Source: Halorubrum aethiopicum (GTDB taxonomy: Archaea; Halobacteriota; Halobacteria; Halobacteriales; Haloferacaceae). From it: DNA of 64,000 bases. The first letter of the stretch is position 1; every line of letters starts with the position of its first letter. The stretch is taken from positions 620,001-684,000 of the forward strand of contig NZ_LOAJ01000001.1 in assembly GCF_001542905.1 (NCBI RefSeq), written 5' to 3'. The position numbers and the translations under genes were made by a program. The notes beneath the pieces are model-generated. The model was not told the origin of the DNA, made no database searches, and saw only the letters and a program-made list of their open reading frames with translations. This document shows positions 782 to 35,180 of the stretch, one piece after another.

Positions 782-1006
782 TCGGAGAGCGACGACGACT
801 CGACGGTCCCGCGGTCGCGTCGAGTTCGCGGTCGCCACGCCGTCACACACCCCCTCTCTTCAGTTGGAAACCGCAAGACAGAGACGGGATATCGTTCCAG
901 TAGAAGCAGGAGAAACGGAGGAACGGGAGAAGCGAAAAGCGGCGAGAAACGGGGGATAACCGAGGACGCGGGGAACGGCGCGTGAAGCGGCCGCGGAGAA
1001 GACGGA

Positions 1007-32352: not shown

Positions 32353-32406
32353 ACTATCGACGACGACCGTGACAGGTATCGAATCGTCTTCGCTCGGGCC
32401 GGCAGA

Positions 32407-32540
32407 TCCCTTCTCTTCTCCACCCATTCTTCCCTCCACTCGTTTCCCTCCCTTTTCCTCCTTCCTCCCTTTTCCTCCCTTTTCCTCCCTTTTCCTCCAT
32501 CCGTTTCTCCTTCTTCTCTCCACTCGTCCCCTCCCCCACC
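32407..32540. repeat. pyrimidine-rich tract beside the origin
   Basis: Some 130 bp are almost pure C and T on the plus strand and include several head-to-tail copies of the 10-bp unit CCCTTTTCCT around 32450-32498. It borders the left ORB element. Polypurine/polypyrimidine tracts of this length can form triplex DNA, and this one may help unwinding or be a barrier; neither is shown. Confidence 0.7.
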
Positions 32541-33316
32541 CCTTCGTTTCGAGTGGAACGAGGCACGGGAGTGGAGGGGTGGCGGAGATCCTGGCGGTGG
32601 TGGCGTCACGATCTGCTCGGAGAGGATTATATCTCCCTCAACAAAGCAAAAACAACAACTGAAACAACAATAATATCTTTTGTGTATTATCGAGGGTACT
32701 GTTTCGGTCATTATAACATAAATCCACCGATATCAGAAACCCATCTCACACCCCACCCCCACCTCAACGCGTTCCACCCGAAACGAAGGGGTGGGGGGTT
32801 GGGTGACGTGTCGGATACACGAACCGACGAGATGGAGTGGTGAAACGACGCGGTGATACGAACGGATGACGGTGATACGAACGGATGGAAAGGATCGACC
32901 GCACGGACGAGCTGACGACCTCGGATCGGCGACGAGTCGACGGGAGATCGGTCCAGGACGCCGGCGGGATCGGTTCGAGAGATCAGTGATCGGTCGGTGA
33001 CCGATCGAGATAGTCGACTTCGAACGTCGATCGCTCCACACCGGAAGCCGACCGCCGCGAAACTGACGGGCCGCGAGTCGTGGACGTGGTTCCAGTATCG
33101 GTAGACGCGATCCGTGTGAGTTCCTCGATCGAGCCGGTCCGCGAGAGGGGACCGTTTCAACTCCAGAGAGGAACATTTTTGTACCTACTCTTCGTGCGGT
33201 TCGAGTGTATCAACTGGACGTGGTCGACGCCGAACCCGACCACGAATTCACGTTTCAGACCGGAGACGGCCTAAACCCGCACTTGCGATCATCGTCTCCA
33301 CTTGAAACAAGGGGGT
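32533..33316. other. putative chromosomal replication origin (oriC, Orc1-type)
   Basis: This gene-free stretch (gap 32249-33320) has the layout of haloarchaeal Orc1 origins. ORB-L at 32533-32559 (minus) and ORB-R at 32771-32797 (plus) match over 26 of 27 bases, core GTTCCAC-YCG-AAACGAAGGG plus a G-run, and point outward from an AT-rich region (about 32625-32735, including TTATAT, ATAATATC and ATTATAACATAA) that should unwind. A third ORB lies at 33294-33316 (TCTCCACTTGAAACAAGGGG), ending 5 bp before the orc1 start. Weaker ORB-like words occur near 33150 and 33250. A 19-bp direct repeat (32851-32888) and a perfect palindrome (32988-33006, GATCGGTC/GACCGATC) lie between. Confidence 0.9.
32988..33006. 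repeat. perfect palindrome in the origin region
   Basis: GATCGGTC and GACCGATC arms flank the loop GGT. It lies about 190 bp right of ORB-R. Possibly a protein-binding site; nothing else supports a role. Confidence 0.5.
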
Positions 33317-33320
33317 TCAC

Positions 33321-35180
33321 ATGGACGAAGGCGAGCACACATCGGGGGTCGACGGCGACATCACACCGGCCGACAGCGAGGAGTCGGACGGCGAGGAATC
33401 CGACGATAGCGACGGCTCGACCGGATCCTCGTCTCCGCAGCCATCCCCATCGTCGTTGGACCGAACGGGGGCAGATCGAGTGGAATCGGACGCCGACACG
33501 GATCGAGTGAAATCGGACGCCGACACGTTCGACGGAAACGGCTCCGGTTCCGGATCCGATATCGAATCCGATCCCGGTGACGACGTCGATGTAGTCGGCG
33601 AGGTCGACGTGGACGCCGTCGCGTCCGACGACTCCGGCCGAACTCCGGAGACCGGACCCGAAGCGTCGGGGCTCGGAAACGGCGGCCGCGACCGCTCGTC
33701 ACCCGACGTCGACTTCGACGGCGTCGTCCTCGACAACGACGATGACGACGACAATCAGGGGCTGTTCGACGACCTCCTCTCCGGCGAGCCGATATTCGAG
33801 AACAAGGAGGTTCTCCGACCGTCGTACACCCCCCACGAGCTTCCCCACCGAAACGATCAGATCAACCGGATGGCGACGATCCTCGTCTCCGCGCTCCGTG
33901 GTGAGACCCCCTCCAACATCCTCATCTACGGGAAGACGGGGACCGGAAAGACCGCCTCGGCGAAGTTCGTCTCCCAGGAGCTCGAATCGACCTCACAGAA
34001 GTACGACGTGCCGTGCGAGGTCGAGTACATCAACTGCGAGGTGACCGACACGCAGTACCGGGTCCTCGCCCAGCTCGCGAACACGTTCATCGAGGAGAAC
34101 CAGACGGTCATCGCCGACCGGCTCGCCCGGCTCGAGGAGCTTCGGGCGGACGCGACGGAAGCCACGCCGGACGCGACAGTCGACGCCACGGACGCGACCC
34201 GCGACAGCGCCGCCGCGCTCGCCGACACCGAGTTCGACTCGGTCGACGAACTGGACGATCGCATCGAGACGCTCGAGGCCGACGCCGACGAGATGGAGGA
34301 GGTCCCGATGACGGGGTGGCCGACCGACCGCGTCTACTCGACGTTCTTCGAGGCGGTCGACTACCACGAGCGCGTGGTCGTGATCATGCTCGACGAGATC
34401 GACAAGCTCGTCGAGAAGAGCGGCGACGACACCCTGTATAACCTCTCGCGGATGAACTCCGAGCTCGACAACTCCCGCATCTCGATCATGGGGATCTCGA
34501 ACGACCTGAAGTTCACCGACTTCCTCGACCCGCGGGTCAAATCCAGCCTCGGCGAGGAGGAGATCGTCTTCCCGCCGTACGACGCGAACCAGCTCCGTGA
34601 CATCCTCCAGCACCGCGCCGACATCGCGTTCAAGGGTGACGCGCTCACCGACGACGTGATCCCGCTGTGTGCGGCGTTCGCCGCCCAGGAACACGGGGAC
34701 GCGCGCCGCGCGCTCGACCTCCTCCGGACCGCCGGCGAGCTCGCGGAGCGCTCCCAGGCGGAGATCGTCGCCGAGAAGCACGTCCGACAGGCCCAAGACA
34801 AGATCGAGCTCGACCGCGTCGTCGAGGTCGTCCGGACTCTACCGACCCAGAGCAAGATCGTCCTGTTCGCCGTGATCCTCCTCGAGAAGAACGGCGTCCA
34901 CAACATCAACACCGGCGAGGTGTTCAACATCTACAAGCGGCTCTGCGAGGAGATCGACGCCGACGTGCTCACCCAGCGCCGCGTCACCGACCTCATCAGC
35001 GAGCTCGACATGCTGGGGATCGTCAACGCGGTCGTCGTCTCGAAGGGGCGGTACGGCCGAACCAAGGAGATGGGGCTCTCAGTGCCAGTCGAGGAGACCG
35101 AGGCGGTCCTCCTGTCCGACTCGCGGCTCGGCGACATCGAGAACGCGCAGCCGTTCGTTCAGGCTCGCTTCGACAACTGA
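33321..35180 (+). CDS. orc1: Orc1/Cdc6 replication initiator
   Basis: The 619-residue AAA+ protein binds ORB elements and starts replication. Walker A GKTGTGKT is at residues 204-211, Walker B IMLDEID ends at Asp361, and a C-terminal winged helix (about 530-615, KRLCEEIDADVLTQRRVTDLISELDMLGIV) follows. Two features exceed a typical Orc1. The N-terminus has about 150 acidic, low-complexity residues, and an extra helical insert (about residues 270-335, LARLEELRADATEA...) follows the Walker A half. The gene is directly right of the origin with an ORB just before its ATG, so autoregulation is likely. It matches the first Orc1 of Haloferax in its neighbourhood (a signal-peptidase gene follows it). 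Confidence 0.95.
   Translation: MDEGEHTSGVDGDITPADSEESDGEESDDSDGSTGSSSPQPSPSSLDRTGADRVESDADTDRVKSDADTFDGNGSGSGSDIESDPGDDVDVVGEVDVDAVASDDSGRTPETGPEASGLGNGGRDRSSPDVDFDGVVLDNDDDDDNQGLFDDLLSGEPIFENKEVLRPSYTPHELPHRNDQINRMATILVSALRGETPSNILIYGKTGTGKTASAKFVSQELESTSQKYDVPCEVEYINCEVTDTQYRVLAQLANTFIEENQTVIADRLARLEELRADATEATPDATVDATDATRDSAAALADTEFDSVDELDDRIETLEADADEMEEVPMTGWPTDRVYSTFFEAVDYHERVVVIMLDEIDKLVEKSGDDTLYNLSRMNSELDNSRISIMGISNDLKFTDFLDPRVKSSLGEEEIVFPPYDANQLRDILQHRADIAFKGDALTDDVIPLCAAFAAQEHGDARRALDLLRTAGELAERSQAEIVAEKHVRQAQDKIELDRVVEVVRTLPTQSKIVLFAVILLEKNGVHNINTGEVFNIYKRLCEEIDADVLTQRRVTDLISELDMLGIVNAVVVSKGRYGRTKEMGLSVPVEETEAVLLSDSRLGDIENAQPFVQARFDN

Follow-up and report, generated by a model that had tools for sequence, protein, structure and literature searches.

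Conserved Orc1 recognition boxes at the oriC1 core, at the orc1 start codon and within polD1 of a Halorubrum chromosome

An origin recognition box (ORB) that nearly touches the start codon of an initiator gene raises two questions: whether the locus is a replication origin, and what such a box, and others outside the origin core, might do. The case considered here lies in a stretch of 64,000 nucleotides (the window, C1:620001-684000) of a 3.33 Mb genome in three contigs, which was assigned to Halorubrum by comparison with genomes of the same genus and by the best named matches. The overall explanation that we consider best, and quite probable from the comparisons described below, is that of an oriC1 origin whose initiator, Orc1, would repress its own gene through the box at the start codon and would be drawn away by satellite boxes.

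Origin core and initiator gene

The oriC1-orc1 locus (32533-35180) is of the haloarchaeal type and contains the following features.

32533..32559, minus strand: ORB-L, left origin recognition box with the halophile G-string, GTTCCACTCGAAACGAAGGGGTGGGGG
32567..32582, plus strand: left arm of an inner G-rich inverted repeat, GGGAGTGGAGGGGTGG, where the oriC1 enhancer sits according to the available text of PMC3936714
32624..32740, no strand: AT-rich region presumed to unwind, 69% AT in 100-mers
32749..32763, plus strand: matching right arm of the G-rich repeat, seen as C-rich on this strand
32771..32797, plus strand: ORB-R, right origin recognition box with G-string, GTTCCACCCGAAACGAAGGGGTGGGGG
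33321..35180, plus strand: orc1, Orc1/Cdc6 initiator of the oriC1 family, 619 aa

ORB-L and ORB-R are identical at 26 of 27 bases. Scored with a weight matrix built from Halorubrum ORBs, they reached 44.3 and 44.1, respectively, while the top score in the control of fifteen simulated 64-kb sequences was 14.6; the near-identical inverted pair described in the initial annotation therefore stands. In the whole genome, only three sites lie within one mismatch of TTCCANNYGAAACNNNGGGGG, ORB-L and ORB-R among them, and the simulation gave none, which rules out a chance origin of the matches. The AT-rich region reported between the two boxes was also recovered, as 100-mers with more than 60% AT occur in the window only there (69%), with a maximum of 58% elsewhere. 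The inner G-rich inverted repeat expected of a haloarchaeal oriC1, overlooked earlier, is present in an imperfect form, with arms at 32533-32581 and 32749-32797 that are 80% complementary. The weaker ORB copies previously placed between the elements were not found: no further ORB with up to one mismatch is present between 32533 and 33320.

Two simple repeats were observed beside the core. ORB-L is adjoined on its left by a pyrimidine tract (32406-32530; 120 nt, 93% pyrimidine, about six TTTTCCTCCC units), which had also been missed and is possibly a simple-sequence expansion able to form an unusual DNA structure. As an origin component the tract was rejected, because relatives lack it (median of 47% pyrimidine at that place). 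Between ORB-R and orc1, positions 32851-32887 are a perfect tandem repeat of 18-19 nt, CGGTGATACGAACGGATGA.

The orc1 product belongs to the NF001625 equivalog (650.8 bits; cut-off 501), is close in identity to the oriC1-type Orc1 of relatives and has solved relatives in the Protein Data Bank (2qby_A and 2v1u_A). The start codon at 33321 is credible, since the frame is closed just upstream and the residues M-D-E are common to close relatives. Compared with 2qby and 2v1u, the protein has a long, acidic and poorly conserved N-terminal extension of about 150 aa (33321-33780) and an insert of about 70 aa between the Walker A and Walker B parts (34083-34300). When the conserved neighbours of a haloarchaeal oriC1 (gbp - cdc6 - sec - polymerase) were looked for, a signal peptidase gene was found directly after orc1; the gene of the small subunit of DNA polymerase D is 39 kb off, and a GTP-binding protein-like ORF lies about 12 kb to the left.

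A total of 81 loci, the window included, were compared; the other 80 were retrieved by Orc1 protein similarity and not by the ORB, and since all are related by descent, the counts are not independent samples. An inverted ORB pair separated by 179-324 bp is present in 79 of the 81 haloarchaeal loci, and the remaining two are truncated where their contigs stop. All 52 genomes of the genus have one or more matching ORBs. Every sequence hallmark of a haloarchaeal oriC1 was found, with a like layout at the orthologous position in essentially all relatives, in agreement with the earlier assignment as an Orc1-type origin of haloarchaea. Because the near-identical inverted ORBs, the AT-rich core, the inner G-rich repeat and the orc1 equivalog occur together, 32533-33320 is, on sequence grounds, almost certainly the oriC1 replication origin of the Halorubrum chromosome. 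By analogy with the oriC1 family, Orc1 would bind ORB-L and ORB-R with the G-strings pointing outward, help to melt the AT-rich stretch between them and then load MCM.

The origin core is an ordinary further member of the known oriC1 family. The minimal oriC1 of Haloarcula hispanica (PMC3936714) replicates autonomously, requires both ORBs and both G-strings and has the inner repeat as an enhancer. The oriC1-cdc6A region described there shares with the present locus the inverted ORBs with the halophile G-string, the inner G-rich inverted repeat, the AT-rich core and the initiator gene downstream, while the inner repeat is imperfect here. Likewise, autonomous replication was shown for oriC1 of Halobacterium NRC-1 (the orc7 ARS; PMC1906834), where a 33-bp inverted repeat around an AT-rich region lies directly 5' of orc7.

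In the GC-skew check proposed in the initial annotation, the cumulative GC skew, profiled over 400 kb around the origin, rises slightly up to the origin and falls beyond it, in the inverted sense reported for haloarchaea (PMC2841640); the turn is seen but is weak and on a par with neighbouring noise. It is improbable that the origin has decayed or lies dormant in this strain: haloarchaea have several origins, some of them dormant (PMC4595724), and the genome contains further Orc genes that pass the family cut-off, of which three have repeated boxes close by, but ORB-L, ORB-R, the G-strings and the AT-rich core are all intact here and the two ORBs are the best of the genome. Each of the two smaller contigs has an orc gene accompanied by repeated boxes of a distinct family, and these are probable replicon origins.

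The box at the orc1 start codon

Two further features lie immediately upstream of orc1.

33270..33276, plus strand: CCTAAAC, a possible TATA element for orc1 that precedes the ORB3 core by 21-27 nt, at a weak AT bump (76 loci)
33294..33316, plus strand: ORB3, next to the start codon of orc1 and proposed as an operator for autoregulation

The third ORB, previously reported to adjoin the orc1 ATG, was confirmed: the 19-nt core at 33297-33315 matches exactly and is five bases from the ATG, and the element as a whole (33294-33316) is four bases from it. Its matrix score is modest (14.2) because the spacer and the bases past the G-string deviate, and its significance comes from conservation and not from this score. 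Specifically, 76 of the 81 loci have an ORB with up to one mismatch whose end is 5-25 nt from the orc1 start downstream, and in 64 the core is exact. In an alignment of the 76 loci, the fixed columns of the box hold 1.1-2.05 bits and the flanks mostly less than 0.4. Columns outside the search pattern are conserved as well, namely a preceding pyrimidine, a purine spacer and a T after the G-string. The position of ORB3 follows the start codon (5-25 nt), while its spacing to the core pair differs by hundreds of base pairs between loci. The weak AT bump, which lies 21-24 nt ahead of the ORB3 core, hints at a TATA element, and such an element would place the transcription start in or beside ORB3.

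A second Orc family on the same chromosome (C1:2497k) has a different box, TTTCACCGGAAACNCGGTGT, which is located at C1:2498430-2498458 and ends 7 nt before the ATG. A search for this box followed by an ATG matched 33 of 119 genomes of the family; the next ATG starts that Orc gene in 23 of 30 loci examined, and the gap is nearly always exactly 7 or 8 nt, although 3-25 nt was allowed. Two initiator families that use different boxes in one design argue for a function, most simply autoregulation.

Given its position and conservation, ORB3 is probably an autoregulatory operator of orc1. Orc1 bound to it, between the probable TATA element and the start codon, would block transcription of orc1 and so hold the level of Orc1. 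The initial annotation had suggested that Orc1 likely controls its own gene, and this suggestion is strengthened by the ORB found at the orc1 start throughout the class and by the like design of the second Orc family.

Two other explanations of ORB3 were weighed. It could be merely a third origin element that aids Orc1/MCM loading and is unrelated to orc1 expression, since its core is that of an ORB, the origin is 0.5 kb away, and additional ORBs also occur between oriC1 and orc1 of Haloferax and others. We consider this unlikely, because ORB3 is tied in position to the start codon and not to the core pair, and because the second Orc family likewise has its own box at the start codon. A role as a translation signal, with the G-string as a Shine-Dalgarno-like element 5-14 nt before the orc1 ATG in most loci, is very improbable: TCCA and GAAAC are as strongly conserved as the G-run, the gap between box and ATG ranges from 5 to 25 nt, and the TTTCACCGGAAACNCGGTGT box occupies the same location without such a G-run.

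An ORB followed by an ATG was also considered as a feature of the whole phylum and was rejected: the bare pattern matched 103 of 295 genomes, and only one of the 32 non-haloarchaeal ATGs checked starts orc1. In non-haloarchaeal members of the phylum, a plus-strand ORB was observed 8-73 nt before the first orc1 ATG, and several of the eleven non-haloarchaeal loci with orc1 have it 45-73 nt upstream instead of abutting the gene. Because of these upstream boxes, the promoter-proximal placement of an ORB may predate the abutting one and may be ancient.

Boxes within polD1 and at other sites

Conserved ORBs were also found outside the origin and its initiator gene. Those referred to below as sites of the present genome are the following.

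C1:692300-692318, outside the window: exact ORB core within the coding sequence of polD1 (DNA polymerase D small subunit, DP1)
850..868, minus strand: cgi121 satellite ORB, two mismatches, 69 nt past the cgi121 stop codon and 32 kb left of the origin
C1:371413-371433: serA satellite ORB-like site, one mismatch, in the promoter region from which serA and a CNNM-family gene diverge, 281 kb from the origin

Beyond 1.5 kb downstream of orc1, a scan of the compared loci gave 77 exact ORB cores, most of them inside the gene of the polymerase D small subunit (NF003116 equivalog). At least one ORB with up to one mismatch is present in 63 of 64 haloarchaeal DP1 genes, in a variable linker. Both a plus and a minus box occur in 29 DP1 loci, and in 23 of these the inverted pair is exactly 57 bp apart. 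The plus box was found in all 30 further Halorubrum genes (28 exact), and it is kept even where polD1 is 16-45 kb distant from oriC1 or is carried by a separate contig. In non-haloarchaeal genes, a DP1 box with up to one mismatch was absent in 29 of 30.

The polD1 box keeps a constant reading frame and its peptide recurs, so that the linker peptide (PVETKG, PSVSTG) rather than a DNA site might be what is conserved. The codons make this scarcely credible. In a test in which the site was located by the peptide motif alone, avoiding circularity, the box codons were CCA at 54 of 56 sites, GAA at 55 of 56 and GGG at 52 of 56, against 7.6%, 27% and 24% elsewhere in these genes, and the inverted partner had GTT in 28 of 28 (7% elsewhere). 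Exactly where the ORB leaves bases unspecified, the residues vary freely (V/P/R/S/D/G/N/Q/H and K/E/G/R/M). Near-fixed rare codons together with free residues at the unspecified positions indicate that the DNA box is conserved, and not the peptide.

Ten near-complete genomes have 5-8 exact ORB cores each, and about 0.1 per genome was expected by simulation. In these genomes, 60 of 65 exact cores lie within about 50 kb of oriC1, counting the boxes of the origin itself. An ORB after cgi121 is present at all 26 placed orthologous sites of Halorubrum (16 exact, nine with one mismatch and one with two); the site at 850-868 lies between cgi121 and a tRNA-Gln gene. Another ORB, in the promoter region between a DUF7090 gene and a divergent MgtE-like gene, is found in 14 of 30 Halorubrum and is lost in the present genome. 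The serA/CNNM box is exact in some relatives, tens of kb from oriC1 there. The array is thus eroded in the present genome, with polD1 moved 39 kb from the origin, two mismatches in the cgi121 box, the DUF7090 box lost and the serA box distant. One isolated exact ORB core, at C1:107347-107365, is 545 kb from oriC1 and has no clear gene over the site. In summary, the satellite boxes exist, are conserved at the DNA level and, in relatives, are mostly no farther than about 50 kb from oriC1.

Possible roles of the satellite boxes

The satellites are found inside a gene, past a stop codon and in divergent promoters, and these differing contexts force no single role on them. Our preferred reading, drawn from the sequences, is feedback or titration of Orc1. 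Taken as a whole, the haloarchaeal constellation of Orc1 boxes around oriC1 (the orc1 start, the polD1 pair and the cgi121, serA and DUF7090 sites) appears, by a modest balance of probability, to be a feedback, titration or regulon system of replication control. Titration of Orc1 as the main role of the satellites is proposed by analogy and more tentatively: boxes near the origin would double soon after firing, draw off Orc1 and damp re-initiation.

A regulon role, exemplified by polD1, is nearly as likely as titration, since the box in polD1 moves together with the gene. The satellites would then be operators of an Orc1 regulon, and Orc1 bound within polD1 might hinder elongation or set transcription, coupling the levels of initiator and replicase. 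In Halorubrum, the box stays with polD1 when the gene is 16-45 kb away from oriC1 or on a different contig, and the boxes of serA and DUF7090 are situated between divergent genes, in their promoter regions. Moreover, Orc1-2 of Sulfolobus is a known transcription regulator (PMC9738581), an Orc1 homologue that acts in the response to damage and binds promoters including its own; it differs in being a non-initiator paralogue and in recognizing the motif DDRE, not the ORB (PMC9738581). On the other hand, the polD1 boxes lie a few hundred base pairs into the gene and the cgi121 box past a stop codon, both unusual positions for an operator. We give this alternative less than even odds.

Titration by ORBs, as in the preferred reading, has a precedent in oriC2D of H. 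hispanica, an ORB cluster that limits oriC2 and is proposed to titrate its cognate initiator (PMC3936714). Both systems have extra boxes outside the origin core. According to the same paper, oriC2D is a dense intergenic cluster of 11 boxes beside cdc6E, while the boxes here are single or paired over tens of kb, one of them inside polD1. A similar arrangement, in which boxes for the initiator lie both at its own gene and at remote sites in the neighbourhood of the origin, underlies dnaA autoregulation and datA titration in bacteria. The counterpart of the dnaA design, a conserved initiator box at the start of the initiator gene, was found here (76 of 81 loci, and the second Orc family), and so was that of datA and oriC2D, extra initiator boxes outside but near the origin (60 of 65 exact boxes within about 50 kb). 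The initiator and box are unrelated to those of bacteria.

In H. hispanica, Cdc6A is very hard to delete and oriC1 is dispensable, from which the authors infer a vital role outside oriC1 (PMC3936714); this fits a second role of Orc1. The accessible part of that account mentions neither an orc1-start ORB nor intragenic polD boxes, and NRC-1 oriC1 is treated purely as an origin, the box at the orc7 start not being discussed in the portion of PMC1906834 available. In the main texts of open-licence papers, we found no account of the orc1-start ORB as a feature of the class, the polD ORBs or the surrounding array, an absence that is no proof of novelty. A 2012 survey drew its ORBs from the intergenic stretches beside orc genes (PMC3528665), and surveys confined to such regions would miss boxes inside genes.

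These observations bear on how archaea with Orc1/Cdc6 initiators restrict initiation and set the level of the initiator. The boxes at the orc1 start and within polD1 may account for the resistance of cdc6A, but not of oriC1, to deletion (PMC3936714). The conserved orc1-start box and the polD1 boxes supply exact bases for mutational tests of autoregulation, titration and the coupling of initiator and replicase, and the outlying conserved Orc1 boxes would point to an unstudied mode of replication control.
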